Shown here: positions 7,336-36,377 of the stretch, in pieces
Layout: every line of letters begins with the position of its first letter
Position numbering within the stretch: the first letter of the stretch is position 1
Assembly (NCBI GenBank): GCA_949294195.1
Contig: CASFGK010000030.1
Coordinates: forward strand, 1 to 43,671
Source of the DNA: an uncultured Bacteroidales bacterium
Lineage (GTDB): Bacteria; Bacteroidota; Bacteroidia; Bacteroidales; UBA932
Direction of reading: 5' to 3'
Length of the DNA stretch: 43,671 bases
Notes under the pieces: model-generated
The model's database searches: none
Told to the model about the DNA's origin: nothing
Seen by the model: the letters and a program-made list of their open reading frames with translations, nothing else
Made by a program: the position numbers and the translations under genes

Positions 7336-10300
7336 TATGCTCTGTCCTCCTTTCTTTTACCCATTACTCTTTCTTCAATGTACTGGAAAATAGTGAAGAA
7401 AACAGGGGTTATAAACACGAGTGCGATAGTACCGATGACCATACCTCCGATAACAGGGATTCCCAAAGAGTGGTAGCCGTTGGCTCCTACACCGCTCGCT
7501 ATTGCCAGAGGCAGGAGTCCGAATACCATTGAGAATACGGTCATAAGGATAGGTCTGAGCCTTATTCCTGCGGCTGATATTGCTGCCAGGCTGAGAGACA
7601 TGCCTGATTTCCTTCGTTCACTCGCATATTCGGTAATAAGTATGGCGGTCTTTGAAAGCAGACCGATCAGCATGATGATACCGACCTGCATGTAGATATT
7701 GCTTTCAATGCCCCATATTCTTGCGGCGAGGAATGACCCCATAAGTCCGAACGGAACCGAGCATATGACTGCGAGCGGCAGGAAGAAGCTCTCGTAAAGT
7801 CCGCAAAGGATGAGATATATGAATACGATACACAATATGTAGATTATTGTGGTCGTATGTGATTCTGCCAGCTGGGCTTCCTCTCGTGTCATGCCGGAGA
7901 ATTCATATCCGAATCCGGTAGGGAGCACTTCGGCAGCGACCTCCTGTACGGCTATGATCACGTCTCCTGAACTGTATCCTGCATTAGGCATACCCTGTAC
8001 GGTGATTGACGGGAACAGGTTGAACCTGTTCAGAATCTCGGCACCGTATGATTTGGTCAGAGTGACGAACTGGCTTACAGGAGCCATGCCGGCAGCTGTC
8101 TTGACGAAAATGTTGTCAAGAGACTGTACCTGGTCACGGTCTTCAGGCCTTGACTGGAGGATTACCCTGTACAGTTTGGTGAATCTGTTGAAGTTGGATA
8201 CGTACATACTTCCGAGGTAGCTCTGCATCACTGAAAGTACCTGGTCTGCGGTAGTTCCCGCTCTCAGACACTTGGCTGCATCCACGTCTACCGTATACTG
8301 AGGGAATTCTGTACTGAATGATGTGTAGGCCATCTGGATTTCAGGTCTCTGGTTGAGAGCCGCGATGACCTCGTGAGTGACTTCGTTCAGGGCTTCTATG
8401 CCTTTGCCTGACCTGTCCTGAAGGTCGACCTGGAAACTGTTTCCGGTACCGTATCCTGAAATCATAGGCGGAGCGAAAATGAAGATCTGCGCATTCTTTA
8501 TGTTGGCTGTCCTTGCGTAGATCTTGTCCATCACGGCGGTGTTGCTGTGCTCCTTTCCTTCTCGCTGATCCCATGGCTGAAGCCTTATCATAAGCATACC
8601 GTGTGATGCACCGCTACCGGCGAATGAGAAACCTGCTACCTGGTTGAATGTCCTGATTTCAGGGATATCCTCAATGCATTTCTGCACCTCTGTAAGGATT
8701 GCATTGGTCTCGCTGAGCGTGCTTCCCGCAGGTGCATCCACACTCATGAAGAGAGCTCCCGTATCCTCGTTGGGAACGAGACTCGTCTTGGTCGTGCTCA
8801 TGAGGAACATAAGCAGTCCTATGGCTCCGAGAATAAGCAGTCCTGAAAGCCATTTGTTGCCGATGAAGAATTTGACCCCGAACTTGTATTTGCTTACAAG
8901 CCTTCCGAAAACGGTATCGAAAGCAATTCTGAATCTGGTAGAGAACTGCTTGGGCCTTTCTCCCGGCTGTACCACCTCGTTCGGTTTCAGGATGAGCGCA
9001 CACAGCGCCGGCGACAGGGTCAGGGAGTTGATGGCGGAAAGACCGACTGCAGCGGCCATTGTAAGACCGAACTGTGTATAGAATACTCCTGATGTGCCTC
9101 CCATGAATGACACAGGGATAAACACCGCCATGAACACGAGTGTGGACGTGATGATGGCCGAGGATACTCCGTTGGAGCCGTCGACGGCAGCCAGATATGG
9201 AGACTGGTAGCCTTCGTCCAGCTTGACCTGTACAGCCTCCACCATGATTATGGCATCATCCACAATCGTACCGATGGCAAGCACGAGCGCAAAGAGAGTC
9301 AGGAGGTTAATCGAGAATCCTGCGATAACCAGAAAGGCAAAGGTACCTATCAGAGCGACGAAGATACTGATTGTCGGTATGATAGTGGCCCTCACATTCT
9401 GAAGGAACACATATACTACCAGGACTACCAGAATGATGGCTTCAAACAGGGTCTTGAGTACTTCATGTATGGACGCGTCAAGGAAGTCCTTGGTACTCAT
9501 GATGTCCACGATTTCGACTCCTTTAGGAAGCTCTTTGGCGGCTTCTTCCAGATAGGCGTCAATGGCGTTGATGATTTCGTTCGCATTACTTCCTGCGGTC
9601 TGGTTGATCATCATAGTCACACCCGGTGCGCCTTTTACACGGCCTTCAAAAGAATATGACTGGGAACCGAGTTCGAGGTCAGCTATATCCTTTAGCTTGA
9701 GTGTACGTCCGTCATCGTACGCCTTGATGATGATGTTTCCGAACTGTTCTTCGGTCTCAAGACGTCCTCTGTATTTAAGGGTATACTGGAAGACATTTTT
9801 CGAGTCCTCTCCGATCGCACCTGTAGAGGCTTCGATGTTCTGTGCCGAAAGGGCGGCGCTTACGTCGCTTGGCTGGACTTCATACTGGGCCATTATGTCA
9901 GGCTTGAGCCAGATACGCATTGCGTAGTCACCTCCCATCACGTTTGCCTCGCCGACTCCCGATATACGCTGGATTTCAGGCTTGATGTTAATACTCAGAT
10001 AGTTGGTGAGGAATGTCTCGTCGTATGTGCCGTCCGGACTTGCAAGGGCAAACACTTTCAGCGTACTGCTCTGCCTTTTCATGGTCTCTACACCGACCCT
10101 CGTTACCTCCGCAGGAAGCAGGGACTGTGCTCTGGATACCCTGTTCTGGACGTTTACGGCTGCCATGTCAGGGTCTACGCCTTGTTTGAAATATACTGAA
10201 ATGGACGCACTGCCGGTGTTGCTCGCTTCTGAGGTCATATAGGTCATGTTCTCCACGCCGTTTATGGCTTCTTCCAGAGGTACGATTACACTGTTCTGTA

Positions 10301-10472
10301 CGGCAGTCGCATTCGCTCCGCTGTATGATGTGCTTACCCTGATGGTAGGCGGGGCAATATCAGGATACTGCTCCACAGGAAGCACCGAAAGTCCGATGAC
10401 TCCCACCATCACGATGAAGACCGATATTACCAATGACAGGATAGGCCTGTCGATGAATGTTTTAAGATTCAT
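7335..10472 (-). CDS. RND multidrug efflux transporter, HAE1/AcrB family
   Basis: The 1045-residue inner-membrane pump uses the proton gradient to export hydrophobic and amphiphilic compounds. It has the AcrB layout: TM1 at the N-terminus (after FIDRPILS), a large periplasmic porter loop, TM2-6 with the proton-relay Asp-Asp pair in the GTIVDDAIIMVE segment (near residue 405), a second porter loop and TM8-12. The duplicated halves and the length are typical. It lies between the membrane fusion protein gene (5 bases upstream) and the channel gene (1-base overlap). The substrate cannot be deduced. Confidence 0.96.
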   Translation of the reverse strand: MNLKTFIDRPILSLVISVFIVMVGVIGLSVLPVEQYPDIAPPTIRVSTSYSGANATAVQNSVIVPLEEAINGVENMTYMTSEASNTGSASISVYFKQGVDPDMAAVNVQNRVSRAQSLLPAEVTRVGVETMKRQSSTLKVFALASPDGTYDETFLTNYLSINIKPEIQRISGVGEANVMGGDYAMRIWLKPDIMAQYEVQPSDVSAALSAQNIEASTGAIGEDSKNVFQYTLKYRGRLETEEQFGNIIIKAYDDGRTLKLKDIADLELGSQSYSFEGRVKGAPGVTMMINQTAGSNANEIINAIDAYLEEAAKELPKGVEIVDIMSTKDFLDASIHEVLKTLFEAIILVVLVVYVFLQNVRATIIPTISIFVALIGTFAFLVIAGFSINLLTLFALVLAIGTIVDDAIIMVEAVQVKLDEGYQSPYLAAVDGSNGVSSAIITSTLVFMAVFIPVSFMGGTSGVFYTQFGLTMAAAVGLSAINSLTLSPALCALILKPNEVVQPGERPKQFSTRFRIAFDTVFGRLVSKYKFGVKFFIGNKWLSGLLILGAIGLLMFLMSTTKTSLVPNEDTGALFMSVDAPAGSTLSETNAILTEVQKCIEDIPEIRTFNQVAGFSFAGSGASHGMLMIRLQPWDQREGKEHSNTAVMDKIYARTANIKNAQIFIFAPPMISGYGTGNSFQVDLQDRSGKGIEALNEVTHEVIAALNQRPEIQMAYTSFSTEFPQYTVDVDAAKCLRAGTTADQVLSVMQSYLGSMYVSNFNRFTKLYRVILQSRPEDRDQVQSLDNIFVKTAAGMAPVSQFVTLTKSYGAEILNRFNLFPSITVQGMPNAGYSSGDVIIAVQEVAAEVLPTGFGYEFSGMTREEAQLAESHTTTIIYILCIVFIYLILCGLYESFFLPLAVICSVPFGLMGSFLAARIWGIESNIYMQVGIIMLIGLLSKTAILITEYASERRKSGMSLSLAAISAAGIRLRPILMTVFSMVFGLLPLAIASGVGANGYHSLGIPVIGGMVIGTIALVFITPVFFTIFQYIEERVMGKRKEDRA

Positions 10473-10477
10473 ATTCC

Positions 10478-11605
10478 TTATTCTCCTTCTTTTGCAGAAT
10501 CAGGTGCAGCTGCAATCGGCGTCCCCTCTTTGAGCAGACCTGCCCCTCTTGCTACTATGACATCGCCTTCCTGAAGTCCTTCTTCAACGATATATTCCTT
10601 TCCGTCGTTGACCTTGAAGACCTGTATCTGTGTGGAAACAGCCTTGCCGTCAACTACCTTGTATGCAAATATCTTGTCCTGAATTTCATAAGTGGCGCCC
10701 TGAGGAATCACCAGACAGTTCTCCCTGACATAAGGGATGATGATATTTGCCGATGCTCCGCTCATGAGTCTGCCTTCAGGGTTGTTGAACACGGCTCTCA
10801 TTCGGACTGTTCCGGTCGTCTTGTCAACGATTCCGCTGATGACGTCGATTTTGCCTGTGTGGCCGTAAAGGCTGCCGTCATTCAGAGTAAGGGAAACTTC
10901 CGGATATGCTGCCAGAGTCTTCTCTATGGAACCGTACTGTGCTGTAAGAGACAGTACTTCCTTTTCAGGAAGAGAGAAGTATACGTACATCTGGGAATTG
11001 TCAGAAACATTTATCAGAGATTCTCCCATAGCTGTCACTATGGCCCCGACACGCACTGAAGTCATGCCTGCAGACCCGTTTACCGGGCTTTTTACTCTGG
11101 TGAAGGAAAGATTGTTTGCTGCGCTTGCTTCCTGGGCTTTGGCATTGGCCAGATTTGCGACAGCGGTATTGTATGAATTGCGTGCCGTCTGCAGCTCGAA
11201 GTCTGAAATGACTTTCTGTTTGTAGAGTTCCTCGCTTCCTTTAAGGTTCAGTCCTGCTGTCGCTTCCTGAGCCTCGGCTGATGCTACGGCGGCAAGAGCC
11301 TGTTTGTAGGCTGCGGCATATGGGATAGTATCGATAATGAAAAGAGTTTCTCCCTTTCTTACGTTAGCCCCTTCCTTGACAAGAACATCTGTGATGATTC
11401 CGGAAACCTGTGGCCTGACCTCTACATACTGCTTTCCTTCGATTACTGCAGTGTAGCTCTCGGAAAGAGTCCTGTCTTCAGGAGCCAGTTTCAATACTGG
11501 ATAAACGCTGGCCTGAGCCTGTTGCTGCTGAGCTGGCTGCTGCTTGCATGAAGTAATGCCGATGAGCAGGCAGAGCCCGATTGTCATAACATTTAAACCT
11601 TTCAT
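10478..11605 (-). CDS. RND efflux membrane fusion protein (AcrA/MexA type)
   Basis: The 375-residue periplasmic adaptor links the inner-membrane pump to the outer-membrane channel. A lipoprotein signal ends at Cys20 (GITSC). The mature protein shows the split biotinyl-lipoyl domain (VRPQVSGIITDVLVKEGANVRKG near 65-90, and its second half around VKSPVNG), separated by an Ala/Glu-rich helical hairpin. Beta-barrel and membrane-proximal domains follow. A Gln-rich stretch just after the lipid anchor is an extended tether. It is the first gene of the three-gene operon, divergent from the AraC-type regulator. Confidence 0.95.
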   Translation of the reverse strand: MKGLNVMTIGLCLLIGITSCKQQPAQQQQAQASVYPVLKLAPEDRTLSESYTAVIEGKQYVEVRPQVSGIITDVLVKEGANVRKGETLFIIDTIPYAAAYKQALAAVASAEAQEATAGLNLKGSEELYKQKVISDFELQTARNSYNTAVANLANAKAQEASAANNLSFTRVKSPVNGSAGMTSVRVGAIVTAMGESLINVSDNSQMYVYFSLPEKEVLSLTAQYGSIEKTLAAYPEVSLTLNDGSLYGHTGKIDVISGIVDKTTGTVRMRAVFNNPEGRLMSGASANIIIPYVRENCLVIPQGATYEIQDKIFAYKVVDGKAVSTQIQVFKVNDGKEYIVEEGLQEGDVIVARGAGLLKEGTPIAAAPDSAKEGE

Positions 11606-17342: not shown

Positions 17343-18518
17343 ATGACAAAATACGATTTTGATAAGATAAACAACAGGCGCGGGACTTGCTCCTGCAAAT
17401 GGGACAATGCTCCGGATCCAGAGGTGCTGCCGATGTGGGTCGCTGACATGGATTTTCAGACTGCTCCGGTCATTGTTGATGCCTTACAGAAGAGAGTCGC
17501 ACAGGGAATATATGGCTACACTCACGTTCCGGATGAGTACTATGAAGCTGTAATCAATTGGTTTTCAAGACGTCATGGCTGGGCTTTCCGACGGGACTGG
17601 ATGGTATGTGTGCCTGGTATTGTGCCTGCTTTGTCCGCGATAGTCAAAGCTCTTGCTGCTCCTGGCCACAAAGTCCTGATACAGACTCCGGTGTACAACT
17701 GTTTCTTTTCTTCAATAAGGAACAACGGGTGCAAAATAGTATCCAATCCTCTTGTCCGGGAGGGGAATGCGTTCAGGATAGACTTTGATGATCTGGAGCG
17801 GAAGGCTGCTGATCCTGACGTGAAGCTTATGATATTGTGCAATCCTCACAATCCTGCAGGACGTGTATGGACACGTGAAGAGCTGAAGAGGATAGGGGAT
17901 ATATGTATGGCAAACGGTGTGGCTGTCGTTGCTGATGAGATTCATTGTGAACTTGTTTATTCCGGCCACGAATACACCCCGTTCGCTTCTTTGTCAGATG
18001 AATTTCTGAAAAATTCCGTAACATGTATCTCTCCGAGCAAAGCCTTCAATATTGCAGGACTGCAAATCGCAAATATGGTAATACCAGATCCGGAAATGAG
18101 GGAAAAAATTGATAAGGCTGTAAATGTCAACGAAGTATGTGATGTGAATCCCCTTGGTGTGATAGCGGCAATAGCGGCATACAATGGGGGAGAGGACTGG
18201 CTTATGCAGCTGTTGGATTATCTGAAAGGCAATTATGACTGTTTCAGGAAATTCTGTTCGGAAAATCTTCAGGATTTCCCGATATGCGAACTGGAAGGAA
18301 CCTATCTTGTATGGATGGATTGCAGTAAGCTGGGAATTGCTTCACACCAGTTGGAGCTTGACCTTATAAGGGAAGCGAAGTTATGGCTGAATGAAGGTAC
18401 AATGTATGGAGCTGACGGTGAAGGATTTATGCGTTGGAATATAGCTTGTCCGAGATCTGTGATGCTCGAAGGCCTGATGCGTTTCAGAAAATTTGCAGAG
18501 AGCAGGGTCAGACACTGA
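17343..18518 (+). CDS. MalY/PatB-type cystathionine beta-lyase (PLP-dependent)
   Basis: The 391-residue fold-type I PLP enzyme cleaves C-S bonds of cystathionine or cysteine to give a thiol, pyruvate and ammonia. The MalY/PatB N-terminus is present (MWVADMDF at 31-38, then IYGYTH). NPHNPAGR (167-174) and VADEIH (197-201) contain the Asn and Asp that bind PLP, and the Schiff-base lysine is Lys233 in SPSKAFNIAGL. AAGGAG lies just two bases before the ATG, which is close; no other in-frame start is credible. It is a single gene whose 3' end overlaps the convergent 215-residue gene by 11 bases. Confidence 0.88.
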   Translation: MTKYDFDKINNRRGTCSCKWDNAPDPEVLPMWVADMDFQTAPVIVDALQKRVAQGIYGYTHVPDEYYEAVINWFSRRHGWAFRRDWMVCVPGIVPALSAIVKALAAPGHKVLIQTPVYNCFFSSIRNNGCKIVSNPLVREGNAFRIDFDDLERKAADPDVKLMILCNPHNPAGRVWTREELKRIGDICMANGVAVVADEIHCELVYSGHEYTPFASLSDEFLKNSVTCISPSKAFNIAGLQIANMVIPDPEMREKIDKAVNVNEVCDVNPLGVIAAIAAYNGGEDWLMQLLDYLKGNYDCFRKFCSENLQDFPICELEGTYLVWMDCSKLGIASHQLELDLIREAKLWLNEGTMYGADGEGFMRWNIACPRSVMLEGLMRFRKFAESRVRH

Positions 18519-19155
18519 CCTGACCCTGCAGGGCGTTCTTGAAGAAACGGCGGCACATTTCCCTTGAGATCTCATTATGGGAAATGATGCCGTTTTTCAT
18601 GTCACAGACGTAAAGCCTGTCTATAAGAGAAAGATACATGGTGTTATAGCAGACCTTAAGTCCATTCTGCAAGTCTGATGTATATGTAACTGCAAGTCTG
18701 ACTTCTTCTTCTGAGAGATGATCCTTGCAGAAAACGTATAGTCCGAAATCTGCAAATTCTCCGTAAAATCCGGAATTCACCTTTTCTACTTTGCTTGCGA
18801 TGATTCTTCTGAGAGGAAGAGCCAATGCCCAATAGCTATATTCGATAGATCCTACATACTTTCCTCCCCGCAGGCCGTAGGCATATCCGCTGTCAATGAT
18901 ATTTTTGATATCATCTTCCGCTTCTTCATCATCTTCCGGTTCAATTATTCCAGCCATTTCCAACAGAAGTGAATCCGCAACTGTCTTGTTTTCTTCCATC
19001 GCCCTGGTCACCTCAATCCCGATTGAATGGTCCGGAGCCTGAAGATCTGGCCTGTCCTTGTTCTCAAGACATGCATACCTTTCTCCCAAAAGGGAGGTCA
19101 GCGATATCATGGCATACCGCTCGAAAAAGCAAGTGTCAAATTTGGTCTTATCCAT
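18508..19155 (-). CDS. Unrecognised 215-residue protein
   Basis: I do not recognise this family. It has no signal peptide or membrane segment. The N-terminal part has an Asp-Leu ... Ile-Glu-Val arrangement (RPDLQ, then SIGIEVT about 10 residues later) preceded by a Glu-rich helix, which loosely recalls PD-(D/E)xK nuclease cores. A second conserved-looking stretch is SGYAYGLRGGKYVGSIEYSYWALALP. The C-terminal third is Cys-containing and mixed alpha/beta. It is a single leftward gene between the C-S lyase gene and tRNA-Gly. The nuclease resemblance is weak and should be treated as a hint only. Confidence 0.7.
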   Translation of the reverse strand: MDKTKFDTCFFERYAMISLTSLLGERYACLENKDRPDLQAPDHSIGIEVTRAMEENKTVADSLLLEMAGIIEPEDDEEAEDDIKNIIDSGYAYGLRGGKYVGSIEYSYWALALPLRRIIASKVEKVNSGFYGEFADFGLYVFCKDHLSEEEVRLAVTYTSDLQNGLKVCYNTMYLSLIDRLYVCDMKNGIISHNEISREMCRRFFKNALQGQVSV

Positions 19156-28968: not shown

Positions 28969-31900
28969 TTATCCTATTACAAAATCGTTTCCTATTCTGG
29001 TCTCCTCTATGCCCGAGCGGCTGTCCGTCAGTTCTATGCAGATGCCCTTCACATACAGCACTCCGGCCCTTGCTGTCGGGCTGTACCACCTGTCCCCGCC
29101 AAGCTCCGTTTCTTCCGCTCCGCTTACCTTGAGCGAGATGACATCGGTGATGCACTCGTCATTTCCAACCCTCGAAAGAAGGGCTTCGTGGGAGTACCGC
29201 TGGCCGAGTTCCGGCAGCGTGCCGTCCTGAAGCCAGGCACAAAAATAGTGACGGACCATGCGTTTCAGCCTCCGTCTTACCTCGCCCGTATCCTGCACGC
29301 CCTCCCTGATGACTGCCTTGAAGCCGACCTCTATCGGCTGGTACACCGCGTTGATGACTTCCGTCCGGACAAACGGGGATGTCCTTTCCATGATTCTGTT
29401 TCCGATTTCCGCAAGCTGCCACAGGGGAAGGAGCGGGAAGCTGCGCTTCTCCGGCTTCGGGAACACCACGACCTCGACCGTGCCGTCCTGCGATTCGGAA
29501 GGTATGCAGCACACTTTTTCTATGTCCGGGAACTGTTCCATGACCAGTGCCTCATAATCCCCTTGACATACAGCCCTGTTGCGGGTGGAGATGCGGATCC
29601 GGCTGCGGATTCCCGTGTCAGCAGGTCCTTCGGCCGGTCTGCCTCCGTAGCCGGGCAGTGGCTGCAAGACGGACAGTATGCGGCCATCCTCCACGGCTGG
29701 AGCGGCTATCGTCCCGGCTGGCAGGGAATGTCCGTCCCCGTTCTGCGCCGTGACACGGAAGCAGTTCAGCCATATTCCGTCCACCGCCGTGTCCACGGGG
29801 GCGTTGCCGTCAGGAAAGCTGAGCATGAGCCAGTACTTTCCGTCCGGTCCGGATGCGGAACATCTGACCTCGATGAATCCGCTGCGGGTCAGCCCTTCTG
29901 TATCCTCGTACAGGATATCCTCCTGTGTCATTTTCTCCCAGCCGGCTCCGTGCACATGGCGTGATACGGCCATCCGTCCGTGCCGGACAGCGGTATCCAT
30001 GCCCTGCCTGACCATGTCCCCTGACATGATGTAGCGCAGATTCATGTACAGCCTCAGGCGGCTTGTGTCTCCCATGCCGCTGAATCCCAATATCAGCGAT
30101 GGCACGGCTATACGGGGAACGAACAGCGGTATAGCGCCTCCTGTGCAGGCGCATTCCTCGCATCCCATGGTTTCTGATACTGCCAGCAGGCGTGAACCGC
30201 TTCCGTCACCCGGACTGAAAGTCTCGTCGCTCTCGTATCCGAATACGGCTTCCGCAAGCATGGGTACGGACGGCATGTCGGGTATGGGAACATGATTCTT
30301 TTCCTTTTCCTTGGCGTTGTGCATCATGGCGGCTGCATAGAGCCGGTAGTAGTCGTTCACGCCGAAGCCTGTTTCCGGAGCATCCAGCGTGATCCGGTAC
30401 ATCCCCTTGCTGTTATGCACGGCTTTGTAGTCGGGGTCGCTAACCAGATTTATTGTTATGGAAGCGCTTTCGCAGAGGTTGCCCCTGTCCGTTTCCCTGA
30501 AAAGGGGCTTGTCCGAGTCACGGCACTCTCTCAAGTGACCGTCGTCCTGCCATTCGCAGCGTATCCTGAAACTGCCGTTGCCGATGGCTTCCCTTGTCCC
30601 GTAATGGCGGTATGTCTCACTGAAACCTTTCTCCGGCAACTTGTTCCAGAGACCTTTCAGCGACACTTCCACGGTATTCTTCATCGCCGCCTCCGGGTGG
30701 CCGAACACGAGCCGGCTCCCTCGCTCTCCTGTCGGGCCGAAAGGATAGAACGGCTGTCCCGGATCCATGTCCCCGAGGTCGCCTTTCAGGGTGAAGTTGC
30801 GGATACCGTCCACCTTGGTGCGGATGCGCACGCTGCTGATGCCTAACCCTTCGGGCAGGGTGTCTATTTGCTTCCTGTCCGCGAAAAGCAGCCTTGCTGC
30901 CGGGTATTCCGTATCAGTTCCATGCAGTTCAGCCCTGCACGGAACGGGTGCAGGGCCTTCCTCTTTCAGGGTGAATGTGAACTCAAGGGAGCGGTCCTCT
31001 TTATTGAATACAAAAGTATATGGCATCTCCGCCCAGCCGTCCTCTCCGCTTACCTGCAGGCGGAACGAAGTCGTGTCACCGTCCAGTATGCCAGACAGGT
31101 CAGGAACGGCCGAGCCGTCTTTCATGGCCAATGCCAGAGCTATGGTCACGCACCGTTTCCCCTCCGACAGCACGAGGCTGCGCGAGGTGACCATCCATCC
31201 GTATTCCAGTTCGGAGGAAACTACGCCGATATGGGTGAAGAGGCGGGCGGAGCGGTTCCCTTCAAGCAGCAGGGAGGCTGTGTGCAGCCTGTCGTTTTTC
31301 CTGAATACGGACTGAACGGATGAAAGGGCTGCCGGGACTACATACGCTTTTTCATCAAGGGCATAGAGCAGGTCGCTGCCGTCTGCGGTCTTGCCTGCCG
31401 TGAATGCGGTGCCCTCCGGCAATGAGAATGTCCCTGTGGTTTTTGTCCTGTCCGGCTCTATCGTGATGAAGGTGCTGTCCTGCACGGCCTCTCTCAGCGT
31501 GTCATGCAGGATCTCCCGGCGGTAGAACGAAGCCCAGTCTGTCAGTCCGGCGTTGAAATCCGATGCGATGCCGCAGTAGTTGCGCACCATCGTCAGCAGC
31601 AGGGCGAGCGAGGCGTCCATGTCGCTGCCGGATTCTATGCGGCTGATGTAATCCTCCGCCTTTGCCTGTATGTCCTGCAACGCCCCGAGCATCTGGAAAT
31701 AGGGCTGTGTGTGGTTGTCCATGAATGCCGGTATACGCCTTGGCCTGTTCCTGTCTTCGTTTCCGGCCGGTATGGCTGCGGTGAGCCTGTCCTTTATCTC
31801 CATCGCCACCTGCATGGCCGGACTGTCCGGACTGTAGCCGTGCGACATGCGGATGAAGCGGTCCAGCCTCAATGACCACTGCGTGCAGCGGTTGATAAGG

Positions 31901-32208
31901 TTCCGGGTATAGTGCTTCTGCTGCGAGGTGCCCTGACCTCCAATGAACGAGGAGACATAGCCGCTGAGATCCTTGCGGACTATCTCTACCAGCACTACCA
32001 GCACATGGTTCTCCCACAGGGAGGAAAGGCGTCCTTCCTCCTTGCCTTCCGCATTGATGAAGGGGATGTCCCCGCTCACGGACATCAGCCACCGGAAGAG
32101 TTCCCTCCAGTCGCTCTCTAAAGCGTGGAAGTCCTCCAGCGTTGCGGTGTCCCTCATGCAGTCCTTCCGCAGCGTGCCTCTCAACTCGTATGTCGGCTTC
32201 TCGCTCAT
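28969..32208 (-). CDS. eCIS baseplate J-like protein (Afp11-like)
   Basis: The 1079-residue protein is the large baseplate wedge component related to phage gp47/baseplate J and to Afp11. Near the C-terminus it has the family signature in which a rejected-loop strand precedes GDYEALVMEQFPDIEKV (about 890-910). Next come a conserved RTEVINAVYQP strand pair and a C-terminal domain ending at the wedge contact. The N-terminal 200 residues are predicted helical and fit wedge dimerisation. It follows the gp25-like gene by 44 bases. Its size matches Afp11-type proteins rather than the roughly 300-residue phage P2 J protein. Confidence 0.85.
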   Translation of the reverse strand: MSEKPTYELRGTLRKDCMRDTATLEDFHALESDWRELFRWLMSVSGDIPFINAEGKEEGRLSSLWENHVLVVLVEIVRKDLSGYVSSFIGGQGTSQQKHYTRNLINRCTQWSLRLDRFIRMSHGYSPDSPAMQVAMEIKDRLTAAIPAGNEDRNRPRRIPAFMDNHTQPYFQMLGALQDIQAKAEDYISRIESGSDMDASLALLLTMVRNYCGIASDFNAGLTDWASFYRREILHDTLREAVQDSTFITIEPDRTKTTGTFSLPEGTAFTAGKTADGSDLLYALDEKAYVVPAALSSVQSVFRKNDRLHTASLLLEGNRSARLFTHIGVVSSELEYGWMVTSRSLVLSEGKRCVTIALALAMKDGSAVPDLSGILDGDTTSFRLQVSGEDGWAEMPYTFVFNKEDRSLEFTFTLKEEGPAPVPCRAELHGTDTEYPAARLLFADRKQIDTLPEGLGISSVRIRTKVDGIRNFTLKGDLGDMDPGQPFYPFGPTGERGSRLVFGHPEAAMKNTVEVSLKGLWNKLPEKGFSETYRHYGTREAIGNGSFRIRCEWQDDGHLRECRDSDKPLFRETDRGNLCESASITINLVSDPDYKAVHNSKGMYRITLDAPETGFGVNDYYRLYAAAMMHNAKEKEKNHVPIPDMPSVPMLAEAVFGYESDETFSPGDGSGSRLLAVSETMGCEECACTGGAIPLFVPRIAVPSLILGFSGMGDTSRLRLYMNLRYIMSGDMVRQGMDTAVRHGRMAVSRHVHGAGWEKMTQEDILYEDTEGLTRSGFIEVRCSASGPDGKYWLMLSFPDGNAPVDTAVDGIWLNCFRVTAQNGDGHSLPAGTIAAPAVEDGRILSVLQPLPGYGGRPAEGPADTGIRSRIRISTRNRAVCQGDYEALVMEQFPDIEKVCCIPSESQDGTVEVVVFPKPEKRSFPLLPLWQLAEIGNRIMERTSPFVRTEVINAVYQPIEVGFKAVIREGVQDTGEVRRRLKRMVRHYFCAWLQDGTLPELGQRYSHEALLSRVGNDECITDVISLKVSGAEETELGGDRWYSPTARAGVLYVKGICIELTDSRSGIEETRIGNDFVIG

Positions 32209-32252: not shown

Positions 32253-32669
32253 TTACAGTCCTGTCAGGTCCGTACCTTCGTGAAAGTAGAAAGGATAGAC
32301 CATGTTGGTGCGGCGGTTCGTCCGGCGGATGGTGTAGTCGAGGGTGATGCGCAGGATGCCTACCTTCTCGTCCGTATCGAAATCCACACGGTTCAGATCC
32401 ACCCTCGGCTCAAACATTACCACCGCCCGCTCTATCTCGTCACGCAGCAGTGTCTGCGTGGAGATGTCCATAATCTCGAACATGTACCGCCGCACGGGGC
32501 AACCGTAGTCGTAGCGGTGGATACGCTCGCCGGGCGAAGTGCTCAGCAGCGTCCACAGGCTCTGGCGTATGTTCTCCTCGTAGGCGGCCATCCGGGTAGG
32601 AGTGCCGTCCTTGTCCAATGCCGGAGGGAAACTCCAGCCATTACCGAGGAATGTTCTGTCTTCGTTCAT
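32253..32669 (-). CDS. gp25-like baseplate wedge protein (Afp9-like)
   Basis: The 138-residue protein belongs to the GPW/gp25 family, which starts sheath polymerisation on the baseplate. The key segment LLSTSPGERIHRYDYGCPVRR (41-61) carries the family's PGER and Tyr-Gly residues, and a C-terminal strand pair is formed around GILRITLDYTIRRTN. The length is normal. It starts the downstream half of the locus. Just upstream are an AT-rich gap and a decayed second copy of this gene's 5' end (33589-33683), which ties it to the history of the accessory insert. Confidence 0.9.
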   Translation of the reverse strand: MNEDRTFLGNGWSFPPALDKDGTPTRMAAYEENIRQSLWTLLSTSPGERIHRYDYGCPVRRYMFEIMDISTQTLLRDEIERAVVMFEPRVDLNRVDFDTDEKVGILRITLDYTIRRTNRRTNMVYPFYFHEGTDLTGL

Positions 32670-33074
32670 ATTTCGTTCTATATATTGTTACTATTTTCAA
32701 GTCCTGTTTTTGACAGACCGGAAAAAGGAAACCGCCTGCCTCCTGCAGTTGTCGTAAAATGGCACAAATGGCAAGCGGAATAATAGGAATTATATAAATA
32801 TCAGTTTGTTTTTTGACTCTAACTTTATCAAAATGCCCACTTTTATAGCGTCTGACCTGTTGTTCCTGCCGAAATATAGGCTTTAACATTTTGTCTGCCA
32901 GGCTACGAAAAGTATGGTTTTTATCTCACATTGCCAATGTTTTACGGATATTCTTCCATTATTCATTTCTCCAATATATCAAAGATCGTAGTTACTTTGT
33001 GATTGAGGATTGAAAATTCTTATGCTTTAGCCGTCCTAAATATTTGACGAACAGAAACTAATTTATGAAAAATA
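32670..33074. other. AT-rich gap without a recognisable gene
   Basis: This 405-base stretch is much richer in A and T than the neighbouring structural genes. An 82-codon frame on the minus strand overlaps the gp25 start and has no family features, so I do not call it. No TAnnTTTG promoter is seen in the gp25 direction. CGGAAAAAGG at 32719-32728 recurs at 33736-33745, at the same distance upstream of the decayed gp25 copy, so part of this gap belongs to the duplicated segment. Confidence 0.6.
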
Positions 33075-33560
33075 TTACTCCCCGATAATCCTCACAACAC
33101 TAGGAATATAATCAAACCATAATTTTTTATCTCGGTTTATATCGTCTCTCAATTGGGGACTTTGCCCTACTAAATGTTCCTCGACTTTACTGTCAATACT
33201 ATTTCTAAACAAGTTATCCACAATAGGATATGAATTTTGACTATGAATAATAGGTGCTTTACATAATTCCCTAAATGTTGCTAGTGCGTTTGAATAACCT
33301 ATTGTATTAACATCTGTCTCTCCTGTAGAGTAGACACCTTCCGGTATATATCTTGCATCATTCCTAATTTTCTCTAAATTTTCTTTTATATTTTTTAAGT
33401 TTTTGATATGCTTTTGGGGAATACCTCTTGAAAAAGCAGATGGAATATTATTGAATAGATGATCACGTTTCTGCTGAATGGTAACAAATAAATGTCTTTT
33501 GTTACTATTTGACGACTCTAAGGTTCTGCTATTTAATTCTTTTTTTTGCATTTTGTACAT
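33075..33560 (-). CDS. Unrecognised AT-rich ORF in the eCIS accessory insert (candidate cargo)
   Basis: A 161-residue protein I do not recognise. It is basic and Asn/Lys-rich at the N-terminus, has no signal peptide or membrane segment, and its codons are AT-rich, unlike the structural genes around it. TIQQKR at 27-32 is identical to a motif near the start of the DUF4157 protein. The rest is predicted mixed alpha/beta (HIKNLKNIKENLEKI helix; LWFDYIPSVVRIIGE C-terminus). No catalytic motif can be named. It lies between gp25 and a broken gp25 copy, so it sits within direct repeats. Being an eCIS cargo protein is inferred from position and the shared N-terminal motif only. Confidence 0.55.
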   Translation of the reverse strand: MYKMQKKELNSRTLESSNSNKRHLFVTIQQKRDHLFNNIPSAFSRGIPQKHIKNLKNIKENLEKIRNDARYIPEGVYSTGETDVNTIGYSNALATFRELCKAPIIHSQNSYPIVDNLFRNSIDSKVEEHLVGQSPQLRDDINRDKKLWFDYIPSVVRIIGE

Positions 33561-33588
33561 AAGTCACTTTTTTGAAATTACTAATATT

Positions 33589-33683
33589 CTACTCATAGGC
33601 ATACATATGCGTAGGTGTGCCGTCTTTATCTAACGCCGGAGGAAAGCTCCATCCGTTGCCGAGGAATGTTCCAGTTCATTCAT
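33589..33683 (-). pseudogene. Decayed copy of the 5' end of the gp25-like gene
   Basis: Read on the minus strand, one frame here encodes FLGNGWSFPPALDKDGTPT followed by HMYAYE and a stop. The intact gp25 gene encodes FLGNGWSFPPALDKDGTPT followed by RMAAYEEN. A one-base loss between the ATG (33683) and this segment throws the start out of frame, and the copy ends at about codon 28. By eye roughly three quarters of the bases match positions 32577-32669. The match continues weakly for about 60 bases upstream to a shared CGGAAAAAGG. It is a remnant of a duplication of the wedge gene. Confidence 0.9.
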
Positions 33684-33750
33684 GCTACTTTGTCATATCG
33701 TTATTACTCTGTTTTTACTCTTATTCTTGTAAGAACGGAAAAAGGTATCT

Positions 33751-34197
33751 TTAGCTTACCTCTCTTTCTAGATGGGTGATCTTATAACTGCCGTCAGTAT
33801 CTTTCATTCCCATTACCAAACAATTTTTTTTCGGGGCCAAATTTGCGGCTCCAACACCACCTGCATATTCTATTCTATCTCTATAGCAACACATTATTAC
33901 GGAAAAATCGTACAAATTTCCATTATCCGACATTACACGACCTTCCACAAGTTCTTGTTCATCAATAAAAAAATCATTTATATTTTCACCATGAAGATGA
34001 TTCCTTTGAAAATCGACTCCTGCGACAAACCGATAAAAAGTGTCATCCGTACTTATACTTGGCTCACTTTTCGCCTCTTTTAATAATTCGGAGAAAGATT
34101 TAGGCGGCATTCTTGATTTTTGAATTGTATGTATTCTGGTGTAATCAATCCTTCTACTAACCTTCTCCTTATTTTGTCTTGTTTCGTACATATCCAT
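33751..34197 (-). CDS. Unrecognised AT-rich ORF in the eCIS accessory insert (candidate cargo)
   Basis: A 148-residue protein I do not recognise. A TTG one codon upstream is possible, but the ATG at 34197 is preferred. The N-terminus is charged (YETRQNKEKVSRR) and contains TIQKSR at 24-29, similar to TIQQKR in the neighbouring ORF and in the DUF4157 protein. The C-terminal two thirds look like a compact beta-rich domain (YRFVAGVDFQRNHLHGE, then VIMCCYRDRIEYAGGVGAAN). No signal peptide, membrane segment or catalytic motif is recognised. AT-rich codons set it apart from the structural genes. Candidate cargo or accessory factor by position only. Confidence 0.55.
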   Translation of the reverse strand: MDMYETRQNKEKVSRRIDYTRIHTIQKSRMPPKSFSELLKEAKSEPSISTDDTFYRFVAGVDFQRNHLHGENINDFFIDEQELVEGRVMSDNGNLYDFSVIMCCYRDRIEYAGGVGAANLAPKKNCLVMGMKDTDGSYKITHLEREVS

Positions 34198-34248
34198 CAA
34201 TTTTTAGTGTTATAATTATGGTTGAATTATCATCTTACGGAAGATTAT

Positions 34249-35925
34249 TCAATCAACACCGTCCATATAGGCCGTGCCATTGATGACCACGCCTTCCCAA
34301 GGGCCTGAACCATCTTGATTAAGAATGGACGGAAAATACGTATTTCCATGTGACCCTACGCCTATCCGTTGCGCATACGTGGCAAACGATGAATTCGCTG
34401 TACCGCCAGCAGTCAATTTGGACAAGAAGGTTTCAAGATTGTCTGTGGTAATGATTATCTGCCCTACCTTGTAATCCGGCACAGCACCGCTCATACCTTC
34501 TGAATACGGCAAACCGATGGCAGATGCATAATCCCCTGCTTTAGCCGTTACATCGGAGTTGGTGATGGTAATCTTGCCAATAGACGGCGAGGTAGTATTC
34601 CCATATCCTAAACCGATGCCTGGCGACCAAGCTCCACCATTGGCTTTGATAACTGCATCCGTAATGGTGATGTCTCCGCAATTCCCGCTACTTGACGAAC
34701 CGATACCGGCACCGCCGAGATAGGGCTGACGCTTTCCGCCTCCTGTGGCATTGACTGTGACGTTCGTGATAATTACATTGCCAGCGGTCGCCCCACTTAA
34801 CGGCGAACCGATCCCTGCGCCTCCATTGCTTCCGTTTGCGGTCAGCACGTCCGCCGTGCTGCTACCTTCTATCGTCACGGTCGCTCCTCCGGACACGGCG
34901 ATGCCGGTGTTGTTGCCCGAAGAAACACTGTTGTTGCCTTGCACTTTAAGGGCAGCACTACCACCCGTTATGTTGATACCGATGCCATTGTCCACGATGA
35001 TGTTGGCATTCTCCAGATAAATTGTAGGATTGTCGCCGGTGACGGTGATGGTTTGCCCGAAGCCACCGCTCACCCGGTAATAGCCATTGTCGTTGATTGT
35101 AGTGTTATCCTTGATGTCCGTAATCTTTTCGCCTACAGTGAGGTCGATGGTGTACATATTGCCGCTTGCCAGCGTGGTGGGGAAGTCGTCATTTATCTTA
35201 GCAGTTTGGCCGTTTATCCGGACAAAATTATCAAGGGTTATATTGCCAGGTACAACATTGGCCTCCCAGCACTCGGTGCCGTCGGCGTAGGTGGTGTGCT
35301 TCATCTTTACCCAGTCTTGCGTGCCGCTGGCGGTGGGTGTGCCTTCATTGTTCGTGCAGGTAGTATAGCCGTAGACTTCCACGCTCTGTGCCAGTGCGGC
35401 CTGCGTGCCGTTAAGCACTACGCGCACTTTGGCAAGCTGGTGCTTGAAGCCAAGGGCGATTTCATTGTCGTAGGTGGCATTCGGTGCTTCGGCTTTCAGC
35501 ACGTAAGCAAGCCTTTCGGACTGGTCGCTGAGGTTAACCGTCTCATTCGTGGGGTACCAGGCGGCGACTGTTGCTGGGGCGGTGCTTGTCCAGTAGAGCT
35601 GTCTGTCTGTTATCAAGTTTCTGTCGGTATTCAGCGTATAGGTAGCGGTTTCATTGCCCAGCCGCACTCCTATCATTTCCGAACCATTCCATTCCCACAC
35701 GCTGCTCTTGCCGTCGGTATTATCCTCCGTAACACGAGTCTGCGGTCCCTCTGCGCTCCACGACTCCGCGCTGCTTTCCACATCAATGGTGACACCGCCT
35801 ATCTGCAAGGGGTATTCGCCGTAAGGCAGTTCGTTGCCTTGTCCGCCCGGTTCATCCTGCGTACAGGCAGCAAGCAACAGGAGGGCTGCTGCAGGGATTA
35901 TGGTGATTAATGTTCTCTTGTTCAT
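34249..35925 (-). CDS. Fimbrillin-family surface lipoprotein with beta-helix C-terminus
   Basis: The 558-residue lipoprotein has a signal ending LLAAC, with the lipidated Cys at 21 or close to it, followed by an acidic TQDEPGG segment of the kind that sends Bacteroidota lipoproteins to the cell surface. Residues about 40-290 resemble fimbrillin (Mfa-like) domains: WEWNGSEMIGV, then FKHQLAKVRVVL, a common fimbrillin motif. From about 300 onward short parallel beta-helix rungs follow, with repeated GGAGIGS and DITITDA-type units. The frame continues 72 codons upstream but that part overlaps the PAAR gene antisense-like and lacks a signal, so ATG 35925 was chosen. It sits between the spike tip and the wedge gene, where structural genes are normally contiguous. 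Confidence 0.8.
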   Translation of the reverse strand: MNKRTLITIIPAAALLLLAACTQDEPGGQGNELPYGEYPLQIGGVTIDVESSAESWSAEGPQTRVTEDNTDGKSSVWEWNGSEMIGVRLGNETATYTLNTDRNLITDRQLYWTSTAPATVAAWYPTNETVNLSDQSERLAYVLKAEAPNATYDNEIALGFKHQLAKVRVVLNGTQAALAQSVEVYGYTTCTNNEGTPTASGTQDWVKMKHTTYADGTECWEANVVPGNITLDNFVRINGQTAKINDDFPTTLASGNMYTIDLTVGEKITDIKDNTTINDNGYYRVSGGFGQTITVTGDNPTIYLENANIIVDNGIGINITGGSAALKVQGNNSVSSGNNTGIAVSGGATVTIEGSSTADVLTANGSNGGAGIGSPLSGATAGNVIITNVTVNATGGGKRQPYLGGAGIGSSSSGNCGDITITDAVIKANGGAWSPGIGLGYGNTTSPSIGKITITNSDVTAKAGDYASAIGLPYSEGMSGAVPDYKVGQIIITTDNLETFLSKLTAGGTANSSFATYAQRIGVGSHGNTYFPSILNQDGSGPWEGVVINGTAYMDGVD

Positions 35926-35993
35926 ATCGTTCTCTTTTATATTATTCTGTTGTGTTTTATATACATTCTTCGTAACAATGCTCTCAACGGCAG

Positions 35994-36296
35994 TCATCCG
36001 CCAATCATCACGGTTGGACAGCCCATCACTATGCTGCCTCCATGTGCAGTGGTGTCGCCCATCCTCGCGGCAGGCTTGCCCCCAATCATTACCGTAGCGG
36101 AGCCTTTGACAATGCTGTCGGGCGGCCCGACACATACGCACATGTCCCCCATGACAGCGGCAGGCATCTTGCCTATCAGTACATTCGGCACACCCGGACC
36201 GACTATCGGCCCTCCCACATGGGGTATAGGGGACGGGAAAGCCGGAGTCTGCATGGGACAGGTGTGCATGTCTGTCAGTCTTGCAGCTGGCGGCAT
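35994..36296 (-). CDS. PAAR-like spike tip protein (Afp10-like)
   Basis: The 100-residue protein caps the VgrG-like spike with a sharp, metal-stabilised tip. It shows the PAAR-like pattern of Gly-Pro-rich short strands: MPPAARLTDMHTCPM, then GKMPAAVMGD, ATVMIGGKPAARMGD and CPTVMIGG at the C-terminus. His, Cys and Met near the N-terminus could bind metal. AAAGGAGGAG eight bases before ATG 36296 fixes the start; the open frame beyond it is not needed. It has no C-terminal effector extension. Confidence 0.9.
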   Translation of the reverse strand: MPPAARLTDMHTCPMQTPAFPSPIPHVGGPIVGPGVPNVLIGKMPAAVMGDMCVCVGPPDSIVKGSATVMIGGKPAARMGDTTAHGGSIVMGCPTVMIGG

Positions 36297-36377
36297 AGGC
36301 TCCTCCTTTCTATTTTGTATGTTCCACTTCCGTTCATATATCGTTTCTTTTTTTCGTTTTACTTTCATCCCTGTTCT

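Follow-up and report, generated by a model that had tools for sequence, protein, structure and literature searches.

A variable slot between the PAAR and gp25 genes of a Bacteroidales contractile injection system holds a broken gp25 copy and predicted cargo genes with a common leader

The gp25 fragment and its locus

We analyzed a stretch of 43,671 nucleotides (nt) from an uncultured Bacteroidales bacterium (contig CASFGK010000030.1), here called the window, whose genome comprises 2.16 Mb in 31 contigs. On its minus strand the window carries a gene cluster that by gene content is a BIS-type extracellular contractile injection system (eCIS), with sheath, tube, hub, PAAR, gp25, AAA ATPase and eCIS core together in one cluster. 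Along that strand the order is Pvc16_N, sheath, two gp19-type tubes, CIS_tube, VgrG-type hub, PAAR, a fimbrillin-like gene, an open reading frame (ORF) of 149 residues (orf149), a fragment of gp25, an ORF of 161 residues (orf161), intact gp25, a gp6-like gene, further genes, eCIS_core and AAA ATPase. The Pfam matches above cut-off are Pvc16_N, phage sheath, both gp19-type tubes, CIS_tube, the hub (OB domain), PAAR, gp25, eCIS_core and AAA ATPase. Our subject is the interval from PAAR to gp25, which we call the slot, and the broken gp25 copy inside it (Table 1).

The first-pass annotation of the window had described a broken copy of the gp25 5' end with further similarity upstream, and we found that both are real. 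Positions 32569-32656 and 33584-33671 align as direct repeats over 88 nt without gaps at 78% identity, and a gapped alignment extends over 163 nt (119/163 identical, 73%; E=1.8e-18 against the whole window) and includes CGGAAAAAGG, which is present upstream of both copies. The fragment sits 1,015 nt from the intact copy, with the AT-rich orf161 between them. At the protein level, gp25 residues 5-36 are 81% identical to the fragment, which has one internal TAG; a length change just past its ATG puts its start out of the gp25 frame, and its other end is broken by a stop and a loss of homology after about codon 36. In the window's genome, gp25 is matched at these two places only at E<=1e-10. In 63 loci with a gp25 relative, taken from a pattern-limited scan of a species-genome collection, the best match of the fragment is its equivalent in locus L006 (Ca. 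Cryptobacteroides excrementipullorum; 94% over 191 nt), followed by the gp25 genes of L007 and L005 (82%; L005 is B. ndongoniae), and within the searches made no other gene matched it better than gp25. The L006 fragment has the same breaks, and its region differs from that of the window at 9/190 nt. Because two independent assemblies share the fragment, an assembly error is unlikely.

The fragment differs from intact gp25 mostly in ways that leave the protein unchanged. Third codon positions account for 15/19 base differences, and over 28 codons 13 changed codons are synonymous and 3 are non-synonymous (one a stop). Measured against five close gp25 genes, the fragment has 12-15 third-position changes in every case, and those genes differ mutually by 2-8 in the same codons. 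The third-position bias and the distance to all five genes indicate that most of the divergence of the fragment predates its loss. Thus, the fragment most likely comes from a diverged gp25 that still encoded protein as it diverged, rather than from a resident gene in recent decay; the same pattern also fails to support a recent duplication of that resident gp25. An alternative is that the resident gp25 was duplicated in tandem and one copy decayed in place, with the intervening ORF inserted later and no exchange between lineages. Both copies retain the upstream CGGAAAAAGG and the order of parts, and an old duplication with both copies long functional would also yield mostly synonymous divergence. 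We nevertheless regard such a relic as rather unlikely given the 13/16 synonymous codons, the distance of the fragment from all five gp25 genes, and the finding that L005, L007 and L008 contain no gp25 fragment.

The first-pass annotation had also suggested that recombination between the repeats would remove orf161 and restore a single gp25. The longest exact word common to the two copies is 13 nt at 78% identity, and the start of the fragment is broken. Since a deletion would retain this broken 5' end unless the crossover lay upstream of it, a clean rebuilding of gp25 is not well supported.

Table 1. Features in and around the PAAR-gp25 slot (positions in the window)
Feature	Position	Strand	Basis or remark
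Broken 5' end of diverged gp25, ~36 codons	33584..33683	-	Repeat and protein alignment to gp25
CGGAAAAAGG, upstream end of fragment copy of repeat	33736..33745	.	Gapped alignment
CGGAAAAAGG upstream of intact gp25, inside boundary repeat	32719..32728	.	Gapped alignment
Boundary repeat, 74 nt	32711..32784	-	76-78% similar to first ~65 nt of element repeated between genes in a Bacteroides array (L119)
orf149, AT-rich ORF of 149 residues with leader, most likely cargo	33751..34200	-	No family match above cut-off; 87% identical in L006
16-residue N-terminal leader MYETRQNKEKVSRRID	34144..34191	-	Leader searches and model
orf161, AT-rich ORF of 161 residues, second slot gene, no leader	33075..33560	-	96% identical in L006; no family match above cut-off
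Intact gp25 baseplate gene, right border of slot	32253..32669	-	Pfam GPW_gp25 8.6e-25
PAAR spike-tip gene, left border of slot	35994..36368	-	Pfam PAAR_motif 1.4e-25
Fimbrillin-like gene	34249..35931	-	Pfam Mfa_like_1 2.3e-12; coordinates give the searched stretch; its first ATG lies a few nt further in
gp6-like baseplate gene, downstream of gp25	28969..32208	-	TIGR02243 1.6e-07 and Baseplate_J 2.7e-4, both below cut-offs

Slot contents and the N-terminal leader

In the close loci L005, L006, L007 and L008, gp25 identity is 85-95%, and the gap between PAAR and gp25 is 2,667 nt in L005, 3,289 nt in L006, 721 nt in L007, 4,867 nt in L008 and 3,325 nt in the window. In the 59 other loci (L009-L067), a PAAR match was found in 57, in all of which it ends 4-146 nt before the gp25 match; PAAR was not found in two. 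The L006 slot contains the same set as the window. The L005 slot contains a fimbrillin-like gene and a 300-residue ORF, the L007 slot a 174-residue ORF, and the L008 slot a fimbrillin-like gene, a 497-residue ORF and a KilA-N protein. The flanking genes of the window and L005 (VgrG, PAAR, gp25, gp6) are 92-94% identical; inside the slot, past nt 683 of the 1683-nt fimbrillin-like gene, the one stretch in common that blastn finds at E<=1e-3 is an island of 56 nt at the leader described below, so that the 5' part of the fimbrillin-like gene is conserved and its 3' part variable. At the same threshold, orf161 and the stretch before gp25 have no match in L005, where the similarity immediately before gp25 covers at most 27 nt. 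These comparisons support the interval as a variable slot with differing contents. The first-pass annotation had proposed comparing related strains for different ORFs flanked by gp25 remnants. The ORFs do differ; a gp25 remnant is present in only two of five close loci (window and L006), and the arrangement is therefore not fixed among relatives. We also observed that the 3' parts of the fimbrillin-like genes (window 34249-35931; L005 4406-5866; L006 3615-5201) are strongly different though the VgrG and PAAR of these clusters are 94% identical.

The first-pass annotation had considered orf161 to be an unrecognised ORF of unusual composition, and this proved correct: its GC content is 31.5%, compared to 57.6% for gp25 and 58.4% for gp6. 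It is not alone in this, as orf149 (35.8%) and the 405 nt between orf161 and gp25 (34.1%) are AT-rich too. The annotation had further proposed that the interval is a module slot with orf161 as its cargo. The variable slot is upheld by the differing contents of L005, L007 and L008; orf161 as the main cargo is not, since it has no leader and orf149 has one. A by-eye impression that orf161 starts with the leader was rejected, as the leader model scores it at -1.2 bits. Comparison of the window with L006 shows that orf161 is under constraint (ratio of non-synonymous to synonymous substitution rates, dN/dS, 0.18; 9 synonymous and 7 non-synonymous changes). Outside L006, no relative of orf161 was confirmed in viral contigs and none was found in plasmids or phages; weak matches in 2/158 genomes (E=0.002 and 0.005) were not counted as relatives. 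For orf149 there were likewise no relatives in plasmids or phages. PDB sequence searches gave no match for three slot ORFs (orf161 reached E 0.056-0.54 only), and structure predictions for both slot ORFs of the window, based on alignments of two rows, were of low quality (mean pLDDT 39.6 in one and 38.7 in the other). The clearest cargo candidate is orf149, whereas orf161 might represent a displaced cargo body or an immunity protein, or have some other role.

The orf149 protein begins with MYETRQNKEKVSRRID from an ATG inside the ORF. We found that the loose pattern MYE[AT]RQNKEKVSRRI[DE] is present at the ORF start in all five slots, which have four different bodies, and in two tandem ORFs of a Bacteroides eCIS (L117, genome G1308). 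A 16-residue leader 56-88% identical to MYETRQNKEKVSRRID is carried by the slot ORFs of L006, L005, L007 and L008, by the two tandem L117 ORFs and by two truncated ORFs (L111, L110), and in some pairs (L008/L117A; L005/L117B) the likeness extends to about 30-40 residues. When the 7 full-length leader ORFs are compared over their first 30 residues, 18/21 pairs match at E<=0.1, and the three misses all involve L007; past residue 30, only the window and L006 orthologues match at this threshold. A short conserved N-terminal part thus precedes exchangeable bodies, as in polymorphic toxin or orphan module systems.

The leader search gave 6 strong matches (E<=8e-12) in 5 genomes, with 5/5 slot-holding genomes matched, and 9 weak ones (E 0.6-7.5) that were set aside. 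In genome sets that partly overlap, matches occur in 2/399 genomes in the family of L005's genome, 2/400 in the window's genus, 5/158 in the genus of L008's genome and 1/393 in the order (the window itself). The window's genus group includes G1115, in which the leader has coordinates identical to those in G433, the Ca. Cryptobacteroides excrementipullorum genome; the two are probably one genome. The total is 12 leader copies in 8 genomes. Of these, 11 belong to a string that also contains a fimbrillin-like or PAAR gene; the remaining copy lies at the edge of a contig, preceded by what appears by eye to be the tail of an HU-HIG-type gene. A gene of the HU-HIG family also precedes the L117 leader ORFs (L117 7826-8275), and there is a 33-residue piece of it in L111 (10614-10712) and a tail recognised by eye in L005 (5877-5999).

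From these data we infer that the slot ORFs would be cargo and that the leader would be a loading signal. The GC content of leader ORFs is 30.8-35.8% across the five slots (orf149 used for the window and L006) and 42.6% and 33.6% in the L117 pair. In 7/7 leader ORFs the mean hydropathy of the first 50 residues is -0.53 to -1.36, the net charge at residues 6-21 is +1 to +5, and there is one aromatic residue in the first 8. The L007 slot ORF resembles a YwqJ deaminase at E=3e-4, below the Pfam cut-off, and the other leader ORFs have no match above a cut-off. Place, low GC and the sub-cut-off match in L007 point toward the predicted cargo role, which hydropathy and charge fit without discriminating.

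Alternatively, the two ORFs could form a toxin-immunity pair that moves as a unit, with orf149 as toxin and orf161 as immunity protein. The two ORFs are adjacent, AT-rich and kept together in two genomes, and orf161 is under constraint; however, the gp25 fragment stands between them, and neither ORF has an above-cut-off match to a known family of toxins or immunity proteins. Nor did we find an immunity gene beside each predicted toxin: in L005 and L007, no further ORF on the same strand is listed from the leader ORF to gp25, and a partner is therefore not required. We therefore consider such a pair doubtful.

Boundary repeat, leader strings elsewhere and distribution of the cluster

The CGGAAAAAGG upstream of gp25 in the window is part of the 74-nt boundary repeat, whose relatives lie in a Bacteroides array. 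In L119 (G1308:C123, 1-4200), a 152-nt element is present in three copies among Abi_2, DUF2442 and HTH genes, beside a truncated leader. With a 231-nt array query we found 7 matches in 4/8 genomes, the query included, and 6/7 are in such slots or arrays. Four are in G1308 (the query, two additional copies and, behind the leader ORFs of L117, a partial one); elsewhere there are 32 nt in the L008 slot, one match in the window slot and one in G432. As a genome-wide repeat, CGGAAAAAGG was rejected, because a longer surrounding pattern (<=1 mismatch) has a single occurrence in the window's genome and one in each of 2/6 others.

An element that stands three times between small genes in L119, with a related 74 nt at the right border of the window slot, could be the recombination site of an integron-like, site-specific cassette array. 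However, the searches of slot and array proteins recognised no recombinase. The stretch upstream of gp25 has no more than 27 nt in common with L005 and is not matched in L007 (E<=1e-3). We consider a cassette array of this kind quite unlikely and favour recombination in conserved flanks, as set out in the next section.

Leader strings are also found outside the slot. In L110 (G640, 8910-11583), a truncated leader ORF occurs with a fimbrillin-like gene and remnants of KilA-N; the KilA-N pieces are up to 77% identical to the L008 slot protein, and none of the window's other eCIS genes match within 19 kb. In L118 (G1306:C64, 3630-4303), a shortened Pvc16-type gene is immediately followed by a shortened peptidase M15 gene, with a fimbrillin-HU-leader string behind. 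The fimbrillin-leader strings of G1306 and G1308 are 99.5% identical, and the G1308 string follows gp25 and a full peptidase gene. It is as if in G1306 the eCIS core had been deleted and the cargo string kept; assembly error is also possible.

The gp25 gene was found at E<=1e-10 in 2/61 genomes (the window and its relatives), which are the window's own and one at 38% identity, and at E<=1e-25 in 26/393 genomes drawn from the order, none above 55% identity except the window's own. On plasmids there were 103 gp25 records, every one <60% identical, and none was confirmed in viral contigs. The gp6-like protein is 91-93% identical to its L005 and L006 counterparts. The close relatives of the cluster belong to different genera, a pattern that suggests horizontal transfer. 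Behind the AAA ATPase, the cluster ends with a 215-residue ORF (18508-19155) that has no Pfam match at E<=1.

Proposed exchange and comparison with known systems

On balance, we think it probable that this Bacteroidales eCIS, acquired by horizontal transfer, has in its structural operon a cargo slot that corresponds to the PAAR-gp25 interval, and that the gp25 fragment is the scar of an imprecise exchange. The observations beneath this are the fragment, its divergence pattern, the arrangement common to two genomes, the variability of the slot and the leader conserved over dissimilar bodies. We infer the kind, order and direction of recombination from sequence comparison as follows. In the usual slot, a fimbrillin-like gene would precede a cargo gene, in most cases AT-rich, with the common 16-residue leader and unrelated effector bodies behind it. 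Its contents would be replaced by recombination in conserved flanks, with the fimbrillin 5' part and the leader as the left flank and the boundary repeat plus the gp25 5' end as the right one. In an ancestor of the window and L006 slots, one imprecise exchange would have joined orf149, boundary sequence and the first ~36 codons of a diverged gp25 to orf161, the boundary repeat and intact gp25, and the gp25 fragment would have been left as a scar between two stacked slot genes. That the fragment instead functions in regulating or spacing the second slot gene is very improbable: its divergence between the window and L006 (4.7%) is not above that of the flanking ORFs (5.4% and 3.3%), but it has a stop and a frame change, most of its differences look like the trace of an earlier coding role, and three other slots lack it.

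Several findings weigh against our proposal of a cargo slot with an exchange scar. A slot at this position is known from five clusters only, and several of the compared genomes are metagenome-assembled. The G1308 fimbrillin-leader string follows gp25 instead of preceding it. The 1/7 boundary-repeat matches outside slots and arrays is in G432, beside a decayed Abi_2-like gene, and the matches in G435 and G1308:C25 span a different part of the element than the window's. Between the window and L006, orf149 has a dN/dS of 0.94 on 24 changes, which a decaying gene also fits, and the lack of a leader in orf161 is a further difficulty. The N-terminal hydropathy and charge of leader ORFs overlap those of several of 16 other cluster proteins (the eCIS_core protein has -0.96, +5 and 1). 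Synonymous divergence between the window and L006 is 0.06-0.10 in slot ORFs and 0.15-0.31 in gp6, VgrG and gp25, yet a further core gene also stands at 0.10, and separate movement of the slot is therefore not shown. A change of divergence inside gp25 between the window and L006 was sought and was not significant (Fisher p=0.16).

A broader picture, which we offer tentatively as a possibility, is of a Bacteroidales eCIS lineage with a dedicated, swappable cargo slot in its structural operon, in which the conserved 16-residue leader would act as an address tag that loads any body, cargo genes would stand in tandem with boundary repeats, and orphan islands would persist after loss of the machine. 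If this is true, the conservation of the leader over dissimilar bodies would make an eCIS loading signal directly testable and give a handle on the effectors of commensal injection systems. The gp25 scar would illustrate one way of stacking cargo genes inside a structural operon.

The BIS clusters are likewise Bacteroidales eCIS with sheath, tubes, LysM, gp25, gp27, gp6, AAA ATPase and DUF4157, and according to the available text their architecture 1 has a protein of unknown function between baseplate genes (PMC7394362). That text describes no variable slot, leader or gp25 fragment, and the terms cargo, PAAR and N-terminal are absent from its main part (PMC7394362). The effectors of PVC and Afp, as presented in the available sections of two reports, have a polar, positively charged short N-terminus before diverse bodies (PMC11297309, PMC11495950). 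The leader ORFs resemble them in this, with values that several other cluster proteins have too. Those sections differ from our findings in that here 16 residues are conserved in sequence and the slot lies inside the structural operon (PMC11297309, PMC11495950); in one of them, a specific conserved signal sequence was not detected in eCIS cargo (PMC11297309). In the literature on eCIS cargo leaders, Bacteroidales eCIS effectors and fimbrillin (title and abstract opening; open-licence texts), we found no description of the slot or leader. In contact-dependent growth inhibition (CDI) and Rhs orphan toxin modules, toxin bodies are exchanged by recombination in conserved flanks and truncated pieces are left behind. 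The scar here differs in being the 5' end of a downstream structural gene and not the toxin's own conserved part. In homology-facilitated illegitimate recombination, one side is joined by homology and the other by chance, which leaves a truncated gene beside an intact one. The exchange proposed for the window would leave the same pattern.
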